This document shows, in pieces, positions 4,969-63,934 of a DNA stretch of 64,000 nt. The first letter of the stretch is position 1. The number at the start of each line of letters is the position of its first letter. Source of the stretch: Branchiostoma floridae (lineage: Eukaryota > Chordata > Leptocardii > Amphioxiformes > Branchiostomatidae); contig NC_049985.1 in assembly GCF_000003815.2 (NCBI RefSeq), forward strand, positions 9,896,543 to 9,960,542, written 5' to 3'. Under the pieces are notes generated by a model. The model saw only the letters and a program-made list of their open reading frames with translations, was not told the DNA's origin and searched no databases. The position numbers and the translations under genes are program-made.

Positions 4969-6880
4969 GTCATCTCCCCATCACTGCTCCTACCCACTAA
5001 CTACATGTACCCCCACCTGCTGTGATGTGCTGAAAAATTCACACATGATTGATGAGCTAATGAACAAAACTGGAATATAGCGCATTACCTACTGGGATTC
5101 ATGGTTGTGACACAATGCAGACCACTCAGGATTGCCCAGCATCTGTCTTTACGTCATTTGATACAAGACGGTAAAATGATGACAAATTTCGTACCTTGAC
5201 AGAATTGGAGTGCCCACTAAAGCTTAAAATTAGGTCAAGACTCATATGATGTCCTGAGTTCAAATACGTGAAAAAAGGACAAAAAATAGCTGCAATGTAT
5301 ACTGCTTACACTAAAAAACCCAACTGTGCTAGGAGTAGATAGACCTGGTTGCCTGACTTGATTCTTACTTCCAGAAGTGTCACCGTGACTGTGTCACCTT
5401 GACATTTAATGTTTCATACAGACACGTCAGCTGCTATTTTTGTTCTAAGGTATCATAACCAGGAGAGGACTTCATGCTTTGAAAGTTATTCTCGATAGAC
5501 CAAAGTATGTTCAATAATTCACTTGCTGAAACAGAAGGGCCTGGTCTATGGGGAAAACTACAGTAATCAGACCTGAATTTATGCCTTTGTGAATGAGTGG
5601 AATGACAGCTAGAATTACTGGTGTATTGAAATATTTAGCACTTCATGAATCATAGAAAGGTGCTAAATTTGGCTACTCCCATTGACAAGTTCACACAAGA
5701 TCAATATCAGAAGACAAATCAACGTTTTTGCAGGTTGACCAAAAGAGGAATATGCTATAATTACTGAAGTATCATCAACTATCATTTCTAGTCAATTTCC
5801 CCCTGTGATATCAAATTTTAATAACATACCAGACGTCATGTGAATTGATAATTTGATTAAAATCGCCAAAATTAATAAGACGTTTCTAGCATCTGTTGCA
5901 AGATAATCAAGTGAACGAAAAGTTAAGGAGATGTATCATCTGAAGGATTTCTCAGTTGCATAAATATTGCTGCACACGTCTGAGATAGCGGAAGTTGGGG
6001 GGAGGGGGGCGGTGGCACATCGAGCAACTTAGGTTCGCTCCGACTTCCAAAGGGTGATTTCATACCCCTGCACAATGTTACGCCCAGATTGGTATTTGTG
6101 TCATACAGAAAACTCTAAATCATCACAAAGGAAGATGGAGACCAACAAATCCCCCGATCTATGAGAACCAAAATATAATAGACGTCGGACACAGCTGCAC
6201 AGCAGACTACAAAACTGTTCCCAAATTCAATTTTCCCGGGTCGGAATGCACTGGGTTAGGATCATCGTCAAAACTCAGAATCAAGGGACATCTACCTGTG
6301 TGAAGCGGTTCCAAGAAGGTTCAAGATGCCCCGGTAGTCACATGTTTGCAACCGTCATCACGGTTAAGTTGAGGACACCAGAGAAAACCAAATTATTGGC
6401 AACTGACGAGGATTCTTTTCACAACAAGCACGCCATTTTATTTCCCGTCGGCCACTGCGGCGGAATACTCCATTTCCGTAAACAAATGGAAAATAGGGGT
6501 GATTGGTTTGGAAAGAAATCAAAGCCGTGACATTATTTTGTGGTGAGAGAATTACGTTACGTTTATACGTTACGTACTTCAAGTTGTCTCAGTCTGTGTG
6601 TGTGTCAACGAAATGGGAGAACACGGATGATATGAAGATGCCCCCCACGACATTTGGATGATTTGGATCTCCAACCAAAATAGATAACGTTGAATGGGAA
6701 TAATCGGAGTGGATAGCCTTTTTTTTTTATTGCACGTCAATGCCCTATCTCGGTTTAAGCAAGGAGGTTATCTTATATAACCTCATTTATGTAAGTGCAG
6801 GCATACAAATACTAGTATAAAAGTCGTAATGAATTACATAACAGTTACAGTGTCAGGACTTTTAATACTCATATATAATA
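4969..6880. other. Intergenic / 5' flank of the coiled-coil gene
   Basis: No exon with coding character was found here. A G-rich, CpG-containing stretch lies around 5990-6480 and may hold the promoter or a non-coding first exon of the minus-strand gene. A 94-codon open frame (6246-6530, plus) covers this stretch but has no recognisable domain. A T-run lies near 6720. Confidence 0.4.
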
Positions 6881-7975
6881 CTAGAAAGGCCGACATTTGC
6901 TTAGGAGCAAATACAGCATATTGCAATCCATCTTCATCCTTGAAAAAATCCCCAAATTCAACAATTTGAAGTAATGTTTGCTCAAAGGGAAAATGAAGTA
7001 CTGTGGGCACTTGTCCTACACACCTTCATGCCGAATTTTAGGTCATTTGGTTTCAATATAAGGGCATAGGAGCCAAAAATATACATTTTTTAGTTTAGAA
7101 TGGCTAAAAATCCCAAAATAACTCATTTTATAAGTGCTCTATGAAGAAAGTGTTGATGGGGTCCTGTTGTGATATGTCCAATTTACCTTTGTACCAAATT
7201 TCTGGTTATTTTGTTTACATACAAGGGCATAGAAGCCAAAAATATACATTTTTAGTCAAAAATGACTGAAAACCCCAAAATAACTAATTTTTGAAGTGAT
7301 CTATGAAGAAAGTGTCAATGGGACCCTGTGAGCATATGTGCAATGCACCTCTGTACCAAATTACAGGTCACTTGGTTTCTATACAAGGGCATAGGAGCAT
7401 AAAATATACATTTTTAGTCAAAAATGGCCCAAAACCCTAAAATAACTCATTTTTGGAGTAAACAATGAATAAAGCGTTGATGGGGTTCTGTGGTCATATG
7501 TCAAACGCACCCATGTACCAAATTTCAGGTCATTTGGTTTTAATACAAGGGCATAGGAGCCAAAAATATACATTTTTAGTCAAAAATGGCCAAAACCCCT
7601 AAAATAACTCATTTTTGAAGTGATCTATGAACAAAGTGTTGATGGTTTTCTGTGCTCATATGTCCAATGCACCTCTGTACCAAATTTTAGGTCATTAGCT
7701 TGTAATACCAGGGCACAGGGACCCAAAATATACATATTTTGTCTAAAAATGACCAAAAACCCTAAATATCATAAATTCTAAGGCCTCTATCAAAAAAGTG
7801 AAAAAAACACCTGGGGGTATTTGCTATCCCTAACTCCATGCCAAATTTCAGCTCATTTGGCCCAAAAATGAAAAAGTTGAATCAATTTGAAGATTTGACA
7901 GGAGAAGAAGAAGAAGAAACCGAGGAAAAACAATATATTGCAATCCCATACTATGTATGGATTGCAATATAATGA
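6881..7975 (+). mobile_element. Repeat element 1: ~162-bp internal tandem units, terminal hairpin, co-varying end tag
   Basis: The left end begins CTAGAAAGGCCGACATTT, followed by a small hairpin (ATTTGCT / AGCAAAT) and the tag ATATTGCAATCCAT (6918-6931). The body holds about five diverged direct repeats of about 162 bp. The phrase AGGGCATAGGAGCC recurs near 7062, 7224, 7387, 7549 and, decayed, 7710. Near the right end is a GAA-rich run (about 7900-7920), then a hairpin: arm ATATTGCAATC (7935-7945), bulged C, CATAC, loop TAT, GTATG, arm GATTGCAATAT (7960-7970). The right tag ATGGATTGCAATAT (7957-7970) is the exact reverse complement of the left tag. A second element at 19234-22603 shares the outer left end and this architecture but has a different tag. 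No convincing protein is encoded. The mobility class is unknown to me. Confidence 0.72.
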
Positions 7976-9515
7976 TAATAGAGGCACCTGGATGCAAATA
8001 CCTGCCTGGATGCCAGACTGTTTCCAGGACATAATACCGCCCATCTCATTGGTTCTAGGGCCAGCATGCCCTCAAGGAAATTCTGCAGCAGGCCCCCCTG
8101 AGTAAGACCTGACCGTGCACGATAGATATGCAGGCTACCTCCAGGTGTAAGGGGTATCTCCTTCAACATTCTGCCACGTTACAACAACACTGCAACCTAG
8201 CATACTGGCGACGTTGAGTTTGCAGAATATTGTATATCAATATATTAACGTCACTAACAACATTAAACAATAGTTGTTCGGATACTAGTTTTATTGTGTA
8301 ATTCCTTCACATTATCAAACTTAACCTGCAACCGTCTATGCCGGACGTCAGTGAACATTTCTGTCGTGCCGGAGGGGTAAATACCAAAGTACCGACAGTT
8401 CAAAATAAAGATTCATATTTGTCGGTAAATAACGCTATAGAAGGCAAATTTATTTTCCAACACAACTTTCGGCAAAACATTCTCAAGAAGTTCTGTCGAA
8501 AACTTACGGTATTGGATAATTAACTAAAAACTTTAGAAGGTATTAAACGTTAGCAGCCCAAGCAAAGGAAGCCAATAAGACTAGGGATTTGCCCCATTTC
8601 ACAGAGCGAACTGTCTGAGCAACTGAATGGCAACAGAACAAAAATGTCAAAAATGTTCTCTTTGCTCAGACTCACTGGCCCTGATATTTAAGGTCATTCA
8701 AACCTGTCCAGAATTATTGCTCTGACAGAGAGGTAGTTCACAATAAAGGAGTGGTTGATCACGTTAACTACTTTATTTGATCAGACTAATTGTATTTCAT
8801 ATATATTTTATTTTGAACCACATCTCACACTCCAAGTGCGGTTTGCGGTTGTTTTATCCACAGTTTTTCGCGACACTGCCGACACCGGAGCACAGATGTT
8901 GGGACGACTTTATATGCATCAACAGGAGGACTCATTGTGTACATCACGATAGGACTAAATAAAGCTATGAGCCAGAGAGCATGCAATTTGTTTCCTGACT
9001 GAACCCAGATTTCCCGATGTCGGGATATCAACATGTCTCCGACTCTGGAGTTGTCGGGGACACACGATGAGGTGTCGGGCGAATATGTACATGTATTCCT
9101 GACTTGTCGGGCAAGCCCTGTCCCGACATCTTGACTATGACCATAAAATTCCCTTTTAGACGCTGAAAAAAGGCCGTCGCCGACCGGATGTCGACAGTGC
9201 CGACATATAGAAAAACATGCATAAATTGGGTCACGTCGCAGGTTACGACAGGTAAACGTTACAGGTGGGTGGTTCTTTCAGGTGGGCGGGTCACGTACAA
9301 GTAAAAGGCGTTTGAACAACAACTTGACCTCTGACGCGATTCGTATTTCAGTGATAGACAAAAGAGTGTCTGGTTAGAGTACGTCGACGCCCAGAACACC
9401 TCAGGCACCAATAAGGGCACGACACGAGTTAGGGAGTAGGCCGGGTGACTATTAAACCCTCCAGCCTGGCAGCTTGAGAGATTTACACGTGGTGGCAACA
9501 CGGTTTAATCCAGTC
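7976..9515. other. Intergenic region upstream of the HHIP-like gene
   Basis: No gene found. Open frames here (for example 8338-8523 and 8951-9501) have no domain-like sequence. A cluster of CCGAC/GTCGG words, some in the palindrome CCCGATGTCGGG, lies at about 8870-9210. The stretch from about 9250 to 9515 is the likely promoter and 5' UTR of the gene starting at 9516. Confidence 0.4.
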
Positions 9516-12500
9516 ATGTACATATACGCTGTGCTGTTCTTCCTTGTGGCCTGTAGTCACGTCACGTTAGGAGCTAAGGACTGTTCTACAAGTGCGACAA
9601 GTGAGACGCCAGGCTGCCTATGTCTCCAAGAGGTCGTGGGCGGGTTGAAGAACCCAGTGGCCATGTTGCAGCCAGATGACGATGCAGGAAGGTTCTTCAT
9701 TGTTGAGCAGATCGGACTGATACGCGTTACCGACTCCAGCGGGCGGCTGCTAGACCAGTCTTTCCTGAACATCACGTCCAAAGTGTTGACGTCTGACAGT
9801 CCCGGGGACGAGCGAGGCTTGCTCGGCGCGGTTCTGGACCCACAGTTCCGCCAGAACGGATATTTCTACGTGTACTACAGCACCAGGGAAGGCAATGGCG
9901 GGGGCGGGCACAAATCTGTGTTGGCGAGGCTGCAGGCATCAAATGACAGGAACCAGGTGGGAAGTAAATAATTGGGTCATGCAAGGACGTTATATAACGT
10001 CTTTGGGTCATGCATGCAACCGTTGTGTAACTGAGGTTGGCTGGACGTATCCCCAAGCAGAGGTTTGGAGGGAGGATAGGAACATTTACTTACTGACCCG
10101 TTTGTCCATCGGTAAACCCTTCACGTGGAAATTAATGTTACGATCTTTTCACCCAGCGTCTGTTTGGAAATTAATAAGCTGCATTTACTGACCAAGGTCA
10201 AGTTATGCGCTCCTAAAAGCAACGGTAAAGTCAGGTTCAAAAGCAACGGTAAGTTTTTAAGCCTGCACCACTCGAACAGTATCCCGTAACTATGTAATCA
10301 CATTCCTGGCTCGCGGCCAAGGATGACAGTCAATGCTAGTACATGTACTAGTATATCATATGCTTCTACTCGACTTCTTTTTTTCGGTGTCGACCTTCGG
10401 GAGCGGGCTACGATTAAGTCGTTATAAGGTAAAAATTGTTATTCACTCTTCTATTTTATAACATTTACTGGGCTCATAATTTAGCGGACTTAAGCGCCCA
10501 AGACTGGACTCCAGGCTAGGCCTTCAAGTTCAGTTAGCTCCAATGGCTCGCTCCCCACATGTTCATTCCGACAGGGAGCGAACTGCGCGAAGTAGTAGTG
10601 GCCATGGAGCTTCTGAAAGACTGGAAGAAAAAAGTACAAAACCCTAGTGAGACTCGGAGTTGTGTTGAAGACCCAATTTATGCATGTACAAGCAGGCGGA
10701 AAGTGAAGTTGTAATATAGCCGCTAGACTGTTCAACGGCAGGTTTTGAAGGTATGATATACACATGTATCAGCTCTAAAAAAGCCACATGCGGCAGTCGC
10801 TACTGGTAATTGGCGAATCGTGCGAATACCTTAATCGCCGCAGCTGTGATTAAACCCGTACTTGTGCATTATTGAGTAGCCCACAAAGCACAACAAAGAC
10901 TGAGCAAACTCATTATACTTCCAGAAACTGCTTCTTAGTAACAGTAGCAGTAGATTGGGTCATAAACACCGGTAGTGTTGACCGCAACAACCCATCAATG
11001 GTACTATGACAGGGGAGTAGTGAGCAGTGTAACAGGTGCACAGATAACAGAAAATAAAGCAAACTCCCAGGTGATAGTTAGTCTACAACTTTACAACAAA
11101 GCAATGGCAATAGTAGTTCCTGACTATTTGTAAATGAAAATGCGTTTTTCTCATTTTGTTTTTCTTCATGCTGTTATCCGCGCTGTGTCTCCTAGGCTGA
11201 CCCGGGTTCCGAGCGAGTGGTGATGGAGATAGCGCAGCCGGGAGACCGTAACAACGGCGGCCAGCTGCTGTTCGGGGCTGACGGGTACCTGTACGTCAGC
11301 GTGGGGGACGGGGGAGCAGGCGCGCACACCGCCGGGAACACGTAAGGGCGCAAACCGTTTAAATTTCCTAGCTTTATATTAGATGTTGAGCGACTTGTTT
11401 GTCCTATTACTTAGGCCGTTTTTGACGACTTTCCAGACAGTGGTGCCGGTGTGCGTTTTCTTCCTGGTCATATGAGATAAATGCGTGCGTGAGAGACGTC
11501 CAAACCCTTGAAACGACGTAATGGAAATAATCCGGAAACAATTATACAATGTATTCTTAATTGTAATATAATCTTACGGGCATCATAGTTGGTAGAAAAC
11601 GCAAATATAAGAACCAGAAAGGTGCCGGTTTTGGGCAAGCGCAGGGTATTTACTCCAATGACTTCATAGTAGACCTTTAAACTTGACATCATGACAACAT
11701 GGAGGTACTGGTGACAGCCCTTCTCTGTCTAGAGACCTGTCTAGTGTGTACCAACGCCGAGGCCCCGCATCACTGTTTCATTCCAGGTCATCCCTCCTTG
11801 GAAAGATTCTGCGCATCAATGTGACTACAGCGGACTCGGGACCGCCCTACAACATTCCCCAGGACAACCCGTTTGTTGGACAGGCCAACGCACGACCGGA
11901 GGTGTTTGCTTACGGCTTCAAGAACCCCTGGCGTTGTTCAGTTGATAAAGGAGACAAGGAAGGTGGGTCTTCGATTCATCCAATAGGACTGTACTGATTT
12001 ATTTTCTTGCTTCGTGGACATTTGAACGTAACAATCCAACTAGAGGCCAAAATGAACTCAGAGCTCCACTGAGGAAAATGTGAGTCTGACCATATTCATT
12101 CACTGAAATTGTTGCACCAAGCTACAGACTTTTCTCTCAAGTAAAGATGATTTACTCCTTACAGCACACCATTATATGCAAATATCAAAAACAAAGTAAA
12201 TTCTACATATGGCGGCATATCATGCACATAACTATCTGCTTAACAAGATATTTAGCAGGTTGACAAATGTGGACCTCGTACTGCGAGGATGAACTAAACG
12301 TCAGACGGTCAAAACTGAAGTCGCAAATATCAAAGAACTACCGAAGGAGAAAGTTTTCTTCACATCTAATGATAGTCAGTCCGTCGGCAGGTGTTGGCCG
12401 TGGGCGAGTGTTCTGTGGGGACGTGGGGAACTCCAGCTACGAGGAGATCAGCATCATCAGCAGGGGCGGGAACCACGGCTGGCCGGACAGGGAGGGGCAC

Positions 12501-16077: not shown

Positions 16078-27093
<11,016 letters not shown>

Positions 27094-42503: not shown

Positions 42504-45500
42504 ATGAAGTTTTCGTACAAGGTGAGTTTGACGGTTCTAATTTGTATTGATTTGTTGGGGCTTTCTTTCTGAAACTGCTGCCATAATTTGCTGTGACTGA
42601 ATTAAGACACATGGAATCTCCTTGATTTTAGGCCTTAACATTCAACTTGTAACTCAATGTATACTAGTATGCACAGACAAATTTACCTGTCATTGGTTGA
42701 AATAACAAGCCTTCTTCTGTTGAATGATTAAGACATGTGGATTATAATTTATATAAAAGCTCCTTGATTATAATAACAAAATAATTTGTGTGTTAGTTTT
42801 CCAACCTGCTGGGTTCAGTGTACAGGAGAGGGAATGTCAGCTTCACACCTGATGGCAACTCCATCATCAGCCCTGTGGGCAACAGGGTCAGCATCTTCGA
42901 CCTCAAAAAGTGAGTTGGACCTACATGAATTATGGTTATGTCATAAATACTAAAAATAGGTTTTCCGTAAACCCTCATAAATATGATTAGCCAGAGTGAC
43001 GTCCTAGTTACTAGTAGCTTACCGTAGGCTCCCATACAAATGTAAGTTGGTGGTCGGTAAGGGGCGAATATACAGACTTTTTATGGACGTCATACTAATC
43101 ATAATTTAAATCCTCCAACGACCATGTTGGCGGGTAATTGAATTAAGCAGTAGCAACTTCATGTAGTTTACACACCTACGCTGTAATCTAACATGGCACA
43201 AATGACGTCAAATGAAAAGCCTGACAGTGTATAGGAATCCTGATGAACTACTGTAACTTGGATGGCAACCAGGCTAAAATATAATATAATATTATAATTG
43301 TTAATAATCCACAAAACAGTTGTGTCAAAAGTTAGACAAGTATGATCCCACTAGATACCAAAGCTGTAAGTGTAACATCTAATCTTAAATCATTACAGTC
43401 TCATGTTAGAACATTCACATTGTTTAATGTTTTGATCCCCTGCAGTAACAAGTCAGAGACACTGCCAGTGGAGGCCCAGATGAACATTGTATGTGTTGCA
43501 CAGTCTCCTGATGGAAGCACTGCTATTCTGGTGGATGAAGGTAAGTGACACTGATAGAGAGGACTGGTCCGGCTACATGTGGTTTGAATTTGTCAGAAAT
43601 TGAAACCTTCATTTATTACAGATCTTACATGATTTTCTTGATCTTATTTTTTGTATCATTTCTTGGCTTCCAGCTGGGGCAGCACTACTGGTGAGCCTTG
43701 TGAGTAAGTCTGTCCTGCATCACTACCACTTCCACAAACCTGTGCACACGGTCAAGTTCAGCCCAGACGGAAGGTGGATGTTATTCTCTTTATGTTTGTC
43801 TGAAGTATTACATTTGTTACTATTTGGTACACCTGTAGTTGAACATTCTAAACAAGTGTAGGTATGGAGGCATTCCCATTTCTGTCCAGAATCAATTTTA
43901 TGGCATTTTTGTATATGTGTATGTGTGTACATTTGTATTTGAAAAACTTGGCGTTTTGCTTTAGGTCAAAAGTAATTACAGGAGCTGGTGTGTTACGCTG
44001 AACGGCAGTTATACCGGCTATATAGATACAGATTACAGATTTTTACAGGTGAATGAAGGTGAATTTGGATGCCTTTTTTCTTAGCATGGCAATTGCAGTT
44101 TCCCGCAATACTGCTACATCTTGCTAGAGGTCACTAACATAATTGTTGGTTAACAGGAAGTTTGCAGTGACTCGTGAGAATCACACACTGGTGTACCACG
44201 CTCCTGGAAAGACACATGACTTCAACCCCTTCCGTCTGTACCGGAGTTACCACGGACCTTACGATGATGCCACATGTATCGACTGGACAGATGACTCCAG
44301 GTAACAACTCAATTCTGATGTCATTTTCTTTTGAAAACTTTGATTTAGGCATATTCATTTTAAAAAATGGCTATGGCAGAAGAGATGTAAGTTTTAAGAC
44401 ATCATAAAGGTTACATACTACACATGCAGATTTCTGCAATATGTGTGTCTATCATATAAATGCAGACTTTCAGTGGTACTGGATGATGGTATGTTGAGTA
44501 CTGAAAGGTATGTTTACAATAGGCCACTCTGGACTGATTGTCATGCTTTGCATATTGTGTATCTCTGCTGGTGGTATGGTGAAAATTTGAAAGATTATAC
44601 ATGTTAATGTCCACAGAGCCTTTGCAGTAGGCAGTAAGGACATGAACACACGTGTGCACGCTGCGACAGCCCTACAGAACCTGGCAGTCTACAGTTTTGG
44701 TGGTCACAAGGATGCCATTGTGGGCTGCTTCTTTGAGCACAAGTCTTTGGATGTATCCTTAATTAATGAGTGATTGTATTGACACTTAGTATTTGTTACT
44801 GCTTTTGATAGTCCAACTTAGGAAAGACTTTAGTTTTTAGTTAAGTACTGATGACAATGATATACGTACAAGTACATGTACCAAGAGCATTTGTACAATG
44901 TAGAAGGATGCATGCTTTTTTATTGACACATGGCCTTGTATTGCACATTAAACCACATGTTGAAATGCAAGAACAAATACCAATTAAATTTTCCGAATCC
45001 TCAATGTTCATTCAACTTGAAAGTCACCAGCAATAACAGAGGTCAGATAAATGCAATGTATAGATGTTGTCTTGAGTATGTAAAGACAACTCTAAATGCT
45101 TGTTTAATTTTTAGCTGCTTGCCCAAATGTAGTTGTGATGGCTAGCAATTTTTTTTATACATGTGACCCTTGACCTGCCCATTCAGTTGTACACAATCAG
45201 TCGGGATGGTACCTTGGTGATCTGGGAATGTGATACTGACCTGGATGGTCTTGTTCCCGGGTCAGCACGACCCAAAAAGGAGAAGGAAACAGAAGAAAAG
45301 GTCAAAGATGACTCTGAAGGTTAGATAAATGTACCCTTGATCATTAATGTACATTTTTTGTGCAATTATTCATGAAATTCTGTTTGGCAGATTTGTAACA
45401 TTTTCATCTTTGATATAATATCCTTACTGTTTCATCTATGCAATTTTTCATTTAACTTTTCTGGTATGAACTGGATTCACAGAAAGTGAGGAAGAGGAAG

Positions 45501-55859: not shown

Positions 55860-58628
55860 ATGCGCCGGTCTAGACTGTCAAGACGACCCCCGACAAGCCG
55901 GGGCGAGAGAAGCCCGTGGGTGGAGGTAGTTTGGACCGTCACTCTCCTGATCGCTGTCGCTTCAGTTGGCAAGGGTAAGCTCGTACAAGTTTGTGAATTT
56001 CTTTTGGTAACCAACATTATGTTTTGTTTGATCCTCTAATGTGGTACATGTAATGTTATCAATTATTGATCAAAGATGTAAACTTTACCTTTACCCAGGG
56101 CACATTTCCCACGATGAATATTGACACACGATTTGACCCGATGTATATTTGCTGAAGTTACTTTACCATTTAACAAAATAAGTATGCACTCCGTAATCAA
56201 TACACCCACGTGTACTTATACCTAATGGTGGAATGAATCATAGTGTATTTGTTCAGCGAAAAGAATAGTAAAAGTTGTCAAAAAAGACTAAATAATCAGC
56301 TTTTCGGCAACCTGGGTCTTCTCAGGCTGCATAGTTCCTCTTAAACATTCTTATCCTACTTGGCCAACCTCTTTTTTGCTATTTTCTCAGTCATTAAATC
56401 GGTCTTGTGCATGTGGAAATCAGAATAATCGCACACAAACTCTCAAGATCGTACGGTCGATATAACGATCGTATTAGGCACATGTTCGTGTGGCTACTCT
56501 GATCGATACACTGCTCCAAGCAGATCCTACGGTAGCATAAGATAGTATCAAAAGCTGCCAGAGGAGTGAAGCCGGCCTAGGAGTAGGAGTGTGTTTGGCT
56601 ACCGCTGGCTGATGACCCCCTTTGGTCAACTGTACTCTTAGCCAGCTTTGATACTATCTTATGCCACTGTTAAGATTGACACCTGAAGATTAACACCGCT
56701 CTTGTCTCAGGGGAAGATAACGTCGACTGCTACACGGCGGAAGACAAAGGTGCGAGTTACATCGGCACGGTCAACGTCACCGTCAACGGGCTGGTGTGCC
56801 AGCGGTGGGACCAGCAGGCACCCTGGGTCAGTACAACAGCCGTAACTATGGCGACGGGAGCGACACACTATCGATTTTGTCATGTTGTTGTTGTATAAAT
56901 ATTGGCCTATGTGTACAAGTCCAAATATCATACAGAATTAGTCATGTCCCGAAATGGACTAAAGTGACTCATTCCATTTACACGATAGTGGAAGAAATAT
57001 CAGAAAATACCAAGGACGTTATATATCCTTGAAAATACCTAGCCTGGAATCCAGCCGAATCATAGCTCCTGAGTCTCTTCTGTTCTCACACCCCAAGGGC
57101 AGAAGCACTGTGGGACAGAAGAGACTTGGGAGCTATAATAAGGCTGGGTACCAGGCTAGAAAATACCGTATTGTCACCCTGATGACATTGTCCTGTAAAG
57201 TCCGTATGGTCACAGTCTTCTCATGTAACCGCTCGGTCACATGTGCCGTAGGTCGTCTATTTTGGTGTCCTAAAATTTTCAAGCAGGTTGTGACAGAACC
57301 AACTGCCGACAAGGGTCCAAGGCAGCCTTGTCCGTAAAAAGACAGATGAGGTATATACGACACATGCAAGAATGTCTTCACGTTCGCACGACAATTGCAC
57401 GACGTATGTGACCAGACCATTACTAGTACATTATTTTGGCAATCTCAAAATAGCAAGATGTATGCATTTCATGAAATAGACGTATCACTTCATCACAATA
57501 AAAGAAATGTAAGCTTTTGCCTTTACCTATATGAATGGGCCGATGTAACTTCAGAAATAAGATTGAATCATGGCCGGCTGTCAGAAAAGACCAGCAATCA
57601 GCGACGCAGTACAAAAAGAAATGGCCAGCAAAAGTGCCAAAAAGGCCATAGAGAGCCTGCTATGGAGGCTAGATGTAACTACCCTACGGGATAATACACC
57701 GGCTTCGGTACCGTAGCCTATTGTATTACATATACATACACGGTGACATTCTGTACATCTAACTAACTGTATAACGGATACACTATATACCTAACGAAGG
57801 CGCTCAAAATCACTCTGTCTCTCTTCCTCCCCCTGTAGACCCACCGGTGGAATCCGTCCAATCATCCGGATAAGAATCTGGCCAGTAACTACTGCCGCAA
57901 CCCTGACAACGGATCCGGGCCCTGGTGTTACACCACCAACCCAGATGTCAGCTTTGAGTACTGTAATGTCTCTGTCTGTCCGAATGGTGAGTACTGTAAC
58001 ATATCTGTCTGTCCGAATGGTGAGTACTGTAACATCTCTGTCTGGTGAGTACTATAACATCTCTGTCTGGTGAGTACTATAACATCTCTGTATGTCTGTC
58101 CGAACGGTGAGTATTGTAACATCTCTTTCTGGTGAGTACTAATATTGTGACATCTCTGTCCGAATGGTGAGTACTGTAATATCTCTGTCTGTCCGTATAG
58201 TGAATACTGTCAATTCATTTGAGTGAACGGTTATGTAGCATTATGTAGCATTTTGATTTTAAACGATTAGAATGTTGGCTCTGGATAATAAACAAAATGA
58301 TATGAAATGAAGAGTACATTTAACTACTGTACATTCAATTACCCCCCTTTACCGTGTAAGTGAATGCTGTTCATAAGCCGTGCACAATGTTATACGACAG
58401 TGACTACTGCCGTCCCCACAACGACCACATTGGCGACAACGACCACAACAGCAACGACCACAACGGCAACAACAACCACAATGCCAACAACAACCACGGC
58501 AACTACCACAACGGCGACAACGACCAAATTGGCAACAACAACCACATTGGCAACAACAACCAGGGCAGCAACAACGTCCCTGTCAGGAGCAACTGTCGTG
58601 ACCACAGCAACAGCAGCGGCAAACTCAG
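55860..58628 (+). CDS. Single-kringle protein with Thr-rich mucin-like segment (3' end uncertain)
   Basis: Exons: 55860-55974 (Arg-rich start, then the hydrophobic segment VVWTVTLLIAVASVG, a signal peptide or anchor), an exon from about 56711 to 56826, and 57839-57986. The last two together encode a complete kringle. Its six cysteines sit in CYTAED, LVCQRW, NYCRNP, PWCYTT, FEYC and SVC, and the hallmark NPDNGSGPWCYT is present. A likely fourth exon, 58401-58628, is phase 1-1 (228 nt) and encodes about 76 residues of Thr/Ala repeats (VPTTTTLATTTTTATTTT), a mucin-like stalk for O-glycosylation. A possible terminal exon at 58970-59118 is in phase and reaches a stop, but its sequence is not convincing. 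Kringles bind proteins or lysine-bearing ligands and are extracellular. This protein's partner is unknown. The donor after the kringle is duplicated in a minisatellite. Confidence 0.8.
56531..56668. repeat. Inverted repeat in intron 1 of the kringle gene
   Basis: Left GCATAAGATAGTATCAAAAG and right CTTTGATACTATCTTATGCC are near-perfect inverted copies about 80 bp apart. Probably a MITE. No target duplication was found. Confidence 0.6.
57003..57039. mobile_element. Ultra-short palindromic insertion, copy 2, with 9-bp direct repeats
   Basis: AAGGACGTTATATATCCTT (57012-57030, 19 bp, three bases shorter than copy 1) lies between perfect 9-bp direct repeats GAAAATACC (57003-57011, 57031-57039). 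Confidence 0.8.
57031..57167. mobile_element. 119-bp MITE abutting the short palindrome, with 9-bp direct repeats
   Basis: The element (57040-57158) has inverted ends TAGCCTGGAATCCAGCC and, inverted from the right, TAGCCTGGTACCCAGCC. The arms pair over about 44 bp with mismatches. It is flanked by GAAAATACC at 57031-57039 and 57159-57167, the same 9-mer that flanks the short palindrome on its left. Confidence 0.8.
57225..57425. repeat. Dispersed repeat, copy in intron 2 of the kringle gene
   Basis: Shares ordered blocks with 31745-31965 (AAGCAGGTTGTGACAGAA; TATGTGACCAGACC). Ends carry GGTCACATGTG and CGTATGTGACCAGACC, roughly inverted, so a MITE is likely. Confidence 0.5.
57954..58210 (+). 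repeat. Minisatellite built from the kringle exon end and its splice donor
   Basis: Units of 33 bp (some shortened to 25) contain GAGTACTGTAAC, ATCTCTGTCTGTCCGAAT and the donor GGTGAGT. Exon/donor boundaries fall at 57986, 58019, 58044, 58069, 58106, 58131 and 58166, each followed by GTGAG. The next unit (about 58200) has lost its GT. The first two units are in frame (11 codons, GEYCNISVCPN). Reading through the third gives a TGA at once. Confidence 0.9.
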
Positions 58629-62313: not shown

Positions 62314-63934
62314 ATGGAACTTTTGGCTACAGTGCTGTTTCTCCTGGTTCCCACAGCGCTGGCACAGGGTAAGTTAAGTTTTCTTTCGGACAGTTGTACG
62401 TGGTCACGTCTGTTGTTAGTAACGTCTCAGCAACCATATTACATTAACATATGGACGCCAGACAGAGTCGCCAAGAAAGGGTAAAAAGAGCAGATAGAGT
62501 TTCCTTACCTCCAAGTAGATCTTTTGTCTTTGGTTCGTTTTATACTTTATTTTGTAGTTGTCTTTTACATGTGTCTGTTTCATCGATTTGATGAAGACCG
62601 CTGTCAGAAACGGACCACCTCCAAAAACTTCCCAAACGAACAGGGGACGTACGAACCAAGGACGTTATAACGTCCTTGTACGAACTAACCAAAACCGGCA
62701 CATACTTTGGAAATCAGAATTTTTTTTTACGATGACACCGGTCTTCATCCGCAAACATTTATGTATCTTACTAAACAAAGAAACGGATTTGTCTAAAGCT
62801 GTGCGAGAACCATGTCAATCAATGTATTGATTACCGATAGACCAATCCGTATAACACAAATGTGAAAGTGACGGAGGTCTTTAATTTCGTTGTGCGTTTG
62901 ATATCTTGGAATAAGTGGAGCAACTCATAAGAGTATCATAGATACGCTCCAGTGTGAGTTGATCACACCAATCAGTCTCTTTGTGAGCATCATGAAATTT
63001 CCAAAAGTGTGATATACTACGAGAACATTTACCGATTATGTGATACCAATTAAATGGTGTAGAAGTGTAGATATATATAAAAAGTTCATAGAATTTATTT
63101 CCACACAGCAAAAATGTTTAAGAAGTCATACCGACATTTCATGCTCGACGAACTGTTGAGCTTCCAAGTTTATGATGAATATTTTCCCCAGGCCAGTGCA
63201 TGAACCTGTCCCCGCTGTGCGGCCAGAGTCCAGGCTGGCCCGACCCCGCCCTGTGTACCACCCACTACGTCAGCTCCAACTGTCAGGAGTTCTGCGGAGG
63301 GTGCTGTAAGTCATGATCCTCTCCTTATCTCCGCAGAGACGCCAAGGATAGCATCAAACATTGTTTAGGCATGGCGAGGAGGCAAATGAAAATGTTGCAC
63401 CATGTACCATTGAAAGAATGTTACATATGCATACCTAAGTTTTCTTCAAATTTTGATTGGCGTATGTTTTCCTCTCTTCAATTTGCCAGTTCTTGGTAAA
63501 CCTAACGTTCGTATTCGCCATTTGACCGGAGAGGATATATAACACAGAAAGGACAGTGTTTGTGAGTTGACCATGGTACCAAGAAACGACGCAAACCATT
63601 TGACGACAGAAAACATAACGTAGTTAGAGAAATTAAATGGACTTTCATAAGCTTGACTAGAATAAACTTATTTGCCACTGTATTGTCCCCGCCTTTTGTA
63701 TGTAAGGTTCTGTCCTAGTATGATATGATACAATCAGATTTGCATTGTAATTGATGTGTGGATCGAAGTAATTAGTAAACATGGCCTAAAACCTCATCCC
63801 CCGCCTAGCCTGTGACACGGACCCGCGCGGGCCATGCCAGAACGGCGGCACGAGAGGAGGGAACCCGGCCAATTACGGATCCTTCACCTGCGACTGTAAC
63901 TGTCCCGCACCATGGACGGGGGATCTGTGTGAAG
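62314..63934 (+). CDS. Secreted ShKT-like + EGF-like protein (5' three exons; continues off the right edge)
   Basis: Exons: 62314-62368, 63192-63305 and 63809-63934, joined in phase 1 each time and ending at a GT donor. Exon 1 is a textbook signal peptide (MELLATVLFLLVPTALAQG). Exon 2 encodes a cysteine-rich module, CMNLSPLC...LCTTHYVSSNCQEFCGGC, whose spacing resembles the ShKT (SXC) fold. Exon 3 encodes an EGF-like domain: CDTDPRGPCQNGGT, then GSFTCDCNCPAPWTGDLCE. One module per exon with phase-1 borders is typical of shuffled extracellular proteins. Function is unknown. A protease or lectin partner domain could lie beyond the window. Confidence 0.82.
62649..62686. mobile_element. Ultra-short palindromic insertion, copy 3, with 9-bp direct repeats
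   Basis: A perfect 20-bp palindrome AAGGACGTTATAACGTCCTT (62658-62677) lies between GTACGAACC (62649-62657) and GTACGAACT (62678-62686), 8 of 9 identical. It is in intron 1 of the ShKT/EGF gene. Confidence 0.8.

Follow-up and report, generated by a model that had tools for sequence, protein, structure and literature searches.

Our study of three short inserts in the genome of the lancelet Branchiostoma floridae indicates that each of these palindromes very probably marks the spot from which a cut-and-paste DNA transposon, operating in the manner of the P element, was excised. The inserts lie in a window of 64,000 nucleotides, the whole stretch of DNA that was analysed (C7:9896543-9960542, in an assembly of 513,431,437 bases and 431 contigs). 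A preliminary description of this window had offered stereotyped excision scars that keep both tips as one of two explanations, and this explanation has good support. Real elements carry a 27-bp terminal inverted repeat whose outermost part is the tip; in the scars the tip is seldom retained beyond 18 nt, and the joints resemble those made by end joining.

All three reported sequences were found where the preliminary description had placed them (Table 1), and the half-site was in excess in the window, with 9 matches at ≤1 mismatch against 2.92 expected and none of 100 shuffles reaching 9. The inserts had been described as near-palindromes; the second is not a full palindrome, its right half being cut to TATATCCTTG. 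The 9-bp direct repeats reported around them can be read in the sequence, yet only 7 bp are truly duplicated, exactly so in all three cases; nine bases had been counted because the outer C and G, which are the ends of the insert, were included. Among the first 15 loci, C preceded the palindrome in 14 and G followed it in 13. A scan of the window with a model of two tips and a 7-bp repeat returned exactly the three reported cases, and the same model gave a mean of 0.1 and a maximum of 1 over 20 runs on Markov controls. At window 9456-10005, scar 1 follows an open stretch with a match to glucose/sorbosone dehydrogenase (PF07995), and a GT just past this match, noted by eye, suggests an intron that begins where the scar is located.

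Table 1. Positions, within the window, of the three scars with their duplications, a paralogous empty site and a possible scar of a sister family.
Feature	Window position	Strand	Details
Possible sister-family scar, CAAGGAGGTTAT...ATAACCTC	6760..6788	+	Tip by search; right end and duplication by eye
Scar 1, left 7-bp target site duplication GGTCATG	9975..9981	.	
Scar 1, 24 bp	9982..10005	.	Two 14-nt tips with 4 bp (ATAT) common to both; right tip with one C-to-T change
Scar 1, right duplication GGTCATG	10006..10012	.	
Paralogous empty site, single GACCATG in a repeat copy	43120..43126	+	Relative at L058 holds a 24-bp scar between two GACCATG
Scar 2, left duplication AAAATAC	57004..57010	.	
Scar 2, 21 bp, asymmetric	57011..57031	+	Left tip intact, right tip shortened
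Scar 2, right duplication AAAATAC	57032..57038	.	
Scar 3, left duplication TACGAAC	62650..62656	.	
Scar 3, 22-bp palindrome	62657..62678	.	
Scar 3, right duplication TACGAAC	62679..62685	.	

The excess of flanking repeats over shuffled flanks, put forward as a check on the inserts, was pronounced. An exact 7-bp repeat flanks 75 of 133 anchored tips, against 1.3 with shuffled flanks (both orientations), and 94 of the 133 have one within ≤1 mismatch, against 13.4. In the 75 exact cases the base beyond the 7 bp matches 19 and 20 times in the two orientations, and a 9-bp duplication is ruled out, since this eighth base agrees only at the level of chance. Mutator-like elements make a duplication of about 9 bp (8-11 bp), and the proposal of a Mutator-like enzyme finds no support in one of 7 bp. 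That the palindromes arose by insertion was upheld, as the duplication differs from site to site and the same kind of scar has a paralogous empty site. At this site, the joined flanks of L058 align with window 43117 and cross the junction without a break; a gap of 14 bases follows 26 bases beyond it. Weaker empty sites were found for L079 and L012, where the joined flanks align with another part of the locus itself, in inverted orientation (40 bp at 85 % and 34 bp at 82 %, respectively), and L048 was set aside as an empty site because it lies within a tandem repeat.

Genome-wide, a palindrome search of the kind that had been proposed, here with AAGGACGTTA-N0-6-TAACGTCCTT matched exactly, returned 116 copies and none for the reversed control. 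The 13-nt tip CAAGGACGTTATAH occurs 1438 times in the 513-Mb host genome, against 7 for its control. One hundred listed rows of this tip, all on contig C1, represent 87 sites, fewer than the rows because a single scar may contribute both its tips as neighbouring rows; extrapolated from these rows, and if they are typical, the genome holds ~1250 tip sites. An unselected sample was drawn from 70 rows of the same listing, again all on C1, made up of 30 loci together with 40 short pieces from other listed places; a small number of the listed positions were omitted for want of letters, and the removal of 5 duplicates left 65 distinct sites. The 7-bp duplication is exact in 28 of the 65 and within 1 mismatch in 40 (shuffled flanks, 0.7 and 5.5). 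Several of the remaining 25, which have no 7-bp duplication within 1 mismatch, look by eye like eroded or over-trimmed scars. None of the 65 sampled sites continues as positions 19-27 of the repeat (≥7/9 match). Within the same contig, L039/L040 (C1:6523846-6523890) hold two scar-like inserts in inverted orientation on either side of a small palindrome rich in AT, which may reflect the inverted duplication of one scar.

Longer elements with the same termini, a search for which had been suggested, do exist, but a copy encoding a transposase was not found among them. Their 27-bp terminal inverted repeat, CAAGGACGTTAYATSAGRAGGACTGAG, starts with the scar tip, its first bases being CAAGG, and has matches at 36 places with ≤3 mismatches, 28 of them with ≤2. 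By coordinates, eight pairs of ends face each other, of which seven span 1538-1577 bp and one 2604 bp (C13:767630-770233); six of the eight pairs, and the single ends other than L069, are known from coordinates alone. Two elements were read as sequence, both without a long reading frame. One of them (L008:1063-2635) is a 1573-bp element with 27-bp inverted repeats, the duplication ATATCTG and a longest open stretch of 96 aa. The other (L069:1210-1516) is a 307-bp relative with the duplication GTCTTAG, a left end shortened to the tip and a right end matched at 14 places genome-wide. Ends separated by 350-380 bp were also sought by pattern, which gave a single place, and this holds neighbouring scars. 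Paired and single ends together make about twenty recognised elements, mostly by coordinates, and the surprise lies in the excess of scars, with ~1250 tip sites set against these twenty or so.

The joints were analysed in 74 distinct scars with a duplication, 58 of them exact. The longest kept tip is exactly 18 nt in 19 of the 74 and longer in 4 (24 nt in L093). Positions 12, 15, 17 and 18 of the tip model each allow two bases, which eases matching there, and the drop after 18 nt is independent of these ambiguity codes. The 18-mer CAAGGACGTTATATSAGA occurs 168 times genome-wide (control, 0), and 160 of these tips do not continue as the 27-bp repeat, although some may run on for a few bases. 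The other 8 are among the matches to the repeat within 3 mismatches; 4 are exact, and 4 match the repeat only at 3 mismatches and so may be long-tipped scars. At least 3 nt of the right tip are kept in 50 of the 74 scars, where the two tips overlap by 1-4 bp (23 scars), abut (8) or carry filler (19), and the right tip is almost wholly lost in the other 24. Insert lengths in the 50 scars range from 16 to 55 bp, most commonly 24 bp (9/50) and 22 bp (8/50). With their microhomology, filler and one-sided loss, the joints look like products of end joining. The retained tip seldom exceeds 18 nt, an indirect sign of where the second strand may have been cut. The available parts of the published accounts describe a P transposase that cuts 17 bp inside the inverted repeat (PMC7776569), and Drosophila P excision with 17-nt 3′ overhangs which are repaired by end joining, through microhomology or with inserted bases (PMC5466332).

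A mechanism of this kind would account for the forms observed. The transposase would cut one strand at the end of the element and the opposite strand some 18 nt further in, so that both flanks would keep 3′ overhangs that carry the outer sequence of the repeat, and end joining would then seal the gap. Because the overhang would include a self-complementary ATAT (positions 11-14), its pairing would yield the frequent 24-bp palindrome, CAAGGACGTTATATAACGTCCTTG, and other pairings, filler or trimming would produce the remaining forms. The element would be reinserted elsewhere, in which case each scar would stand for one past jump.

Our data also indicate that the scars are inherited. L003 and L075 were rejected as independent scars at one site, being one substitution apart in a duplicated region, and are a single scar in two diverged copies of it. 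Furthermore, the exact palindrome at C3:31734938 lies, by coordinates, inside the C3 element (31733830-31735399), a copy known from coordinates alone. By subtraction of coordinates, its position in that element agrees to a few bases with that of the scar nested in the C1 element, both elements being 1.57 kb. Taken together, the L003/L075 copies and the nested palindromes on C1 and C3 argue that scars pass through the germline and are not solely somatic events in the sequenced animal. The same one-sided tip was also seen in several copies of one repeat (L026/L027, L105 and L123), where the scar seems to have been amplified together with its host repeat.

The other explanation in the preliminary description, that of a mobile palindrome, was not supported and appears very improbable. 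The insert would then be a minimal element in its own right, mobilised in trans by a transposase for which the tips suffice. This reading could draw on the exact duplications at many sites and on the recurrence of the 24-bp form and a 31-bp form (L099, L109 and L117) at different targets, yet these recurring forms would be those that annealing of the tips predicts. A mobile unit is, moreover, hard to reconcile with inserts of such varied length, with the fillers and one-sided losses, or with tips that fall off beyond 18 nt although the repeat has 27 bp, for which it gives no evident reason. We consider it very improbable that the inserts are internal-deletion derivatives made by abortive gap repair, in the manner of ultra-short MITEs. 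Gap-repair deletions are known for P elements and the 307-bp element at L069 is such a derivative, but it is the sole one noticed. Gap repair should often retain more than 18 nt on one side, whereas the 18-nt tips overwhelmingly stop without continuing as the repeat and longer tips were kept in only 4 of the 74 scars. Chance palindromes or binding sites can practically be dismissed: palindromes are a common shape for binding sites in general, and we found no other point in favour, whereas the tip counts far above control, the exact duplications far above shuffled flanks and the empty site all stand against this reading.

Excision scars of a transposon superfamily other than P are unlikely, although this alternative merits some weight. 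The elements yielded no transposase, and the target flank is unlike the P-superfamily motifs in the available part of the published comparison (PMC4168063). Set against this, the 7-bp GT...AC duplications match Galileo, and a 17-nt staggered cut distinguishes P from other characterised cut-and-paste elements, as far as the available part of the source states (PMC7776569). Dada, with duplications of 6 and 7 bases, is described in the accessible part of its report as lacking terminal inverted repeats and inserting in small RNA genes (PMC3706591), whereas the parent elements here have 27-bp inverted repeats and the window, which holds three scars, gave no tRNA match and no Rfam match at gathering score.

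Excision scars of a P-like transposon are, in addition, apparently not restricted to one family, the tips of candidate scar families being CAAGGACGTT, CAAGGAGGTT and CAAGGAGCTTTT. A sister tip, CAAGGAGGTTA, occurs 5674 times genome-wide (control, 160), and among 100 listed rows its neighbour pairs within 50 bp comprised 14 facing, 1 diverging and 1 in the same direction. Loci longer than 2.5 kb contain 6 scars outside the bait sites in 239,742 bases, a base count that includes the bait sites, and 2 of the 6 are in L019, a locus fetched for its two tips. Extrapolated, the total would be of the order of ten thousand scars, an approximate number given how few events underlie it. The possible sister-family scar in the window has a poor duplication (GTTTAAG / ATGTAAG, 2 mismatches, by eye) and is absent from the model scan. 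A third tip type, about CAAGGAGCTTTTATC, was observed at L033:1925-1951, where it has a 7-bp repeat, TTCTGGC/TTCTGAC, and also in L080 near 790; it is possibly another scar family.

A sister-type tip, CAAGGAGGTTATGG, was also seen at L083:117-132 (C11, about 17078666), inside an open stretch with the start of a P-like protein. The remainder of this gene is in another frame, and a relative on C19 has both parts in one frame. The C11 gene was considered as a source of the family by virtue of the CAAGGAGGTTA tip near its start and was not upheld, as the tip is within the open stretch that carries the protein start and the relative on C19 can be aligned to either side of it. No other end for this tip was found on C11 among the 0-1-mismatch matches listed, and from its sequence context it looks like a sister scar within a gene. 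The P-like genes on C19 and C11 share a TNP-like RNase H domain (PF21787) and resemble each other over a number of segments, and a third, partial match is on C6. These two best matches are genes without ends of the palindrome family as far as read, and none of the best 22 P-like protein matches falls within the paired elements, so that membership of the P superfamily stays inferential.

We also observed several repeats of other kinds in the window. An inverted repeat of foldback type at 18454-19087 has 204-nt arms that are 92 % complementary, 226 nt apart and contain 42-bp tandem units. Tandem arrays at 7034-7766 and 21809-22388 are related to each other and have unit lengths of 162 and 164 bp, and a 65-bp sequence stands twice in tandem, with zero differences, at 20003-20132.

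Cut-and-paste jumps are hard to detect once the element has departed. Because a long cut leaves a readable scar, past jumps become countable from a genome, and the scars reveal cut position, target motif, repair outcomes and transposon families that are almost gone. Scars of 20-40 bp would very likely escape repeat annotation. It is conceivable, though we hold it to be very improbable, that the excess reflects sustained removal rather than random jumping, with a P-type transposase having cut elements from the germline thousands of times and the host having end-joined the gaps. If so, one of the host P-like genes on C11 and C19 possibly acts in trans, and whole families are now known almost solely by their scars.

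The preliminary description knew of no family like this, which is right in so far as the numbers and the host are unusual and too strong in so far as a P-type 17-nt cut would leave such scars. No paper on such scars in lancelets or genome-wide was recognised by title or the start of its abstract, which does not prove absence, and none of 10 papers printing the string AAGGACGTTA concerned transposons, judged by title. In summary, a known P mechanism is here made visible on an unusual scale, and the scar sequences suggest that animals other than flies, too, have a long staggered cut resembling that of Drosophila P.

Membership of the P superfamily is likely: the duplication, the target, the bases at the ends and the length of the putative cut all point that way. 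The superfamily has 7- or 8-bp duplications and short terminal inverted repeats beginning with CA, and we found a 7-bp duplication and a 27-bp repeat that begins so. In 59 scars with exact duplications, both tip types pooled, the target motif is palindromic, TNNGTNNNACNNA, with T at -3 in 71 %, G as the first duplicated base in 42 % and T as the second in 64 %; since the count took in both strands, the opposite side shows the mirror image. The target is thus a palindromic GT...AC reaching beyond the duplication, and its flanking base (T at -3) is unlike the published motifs of P, 1360 and Galileo.

The ends of Drosophila P begin with CA, as here. The accessible parts of the literature show that Drosophila P further shares a long stagger, with one cut 17 nt into the inverted repeat (PMC7776569), repair by end joining that involves microhomologies or insertions (PMC5466332) and a target motif with GT...AC (PMC4168063). 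It differs in its 8-bp duplication and 17 nt, against 7 bp and about 18 nt retained here, and the lancelet family differs in that its scars far outnumber its recognised elements and its transposase was not found. Galileo, of the P superfamily, has in the portions of its accounts available 7-bp duplications that start with GT and end with AC, prefers GTAGTAC or GTANTAC and has a target palindrome wider than the duplication (PMC2775673, PMC4168063), whereas its inverted repeats are long and internally repetitive, against 27 bp here, and its flanking target bases differ. Zebrafish Pdre2 / THAP9 is likewise a chordate P-like element with short inverted repeats beginning with CA (CATACCTGTCAAC), but with 8-bp duplications and another repeat sequence, and the part of its description available mentions no scar population (PMC10983969). 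The P-MITEs of Anopheles gambiae, where P elements have 27-31 bp repeats, are non-autonomous with P-type ends, but according to the available part of the source they are longer, repeat their interior in full among copies and have 8-bp duplications (PMC1562414). In contrast to MITEs, whose copies have a conserved interior in common, the palindromes described here have no interior, and the inserts in the scars read consist of tip, filler and tip.
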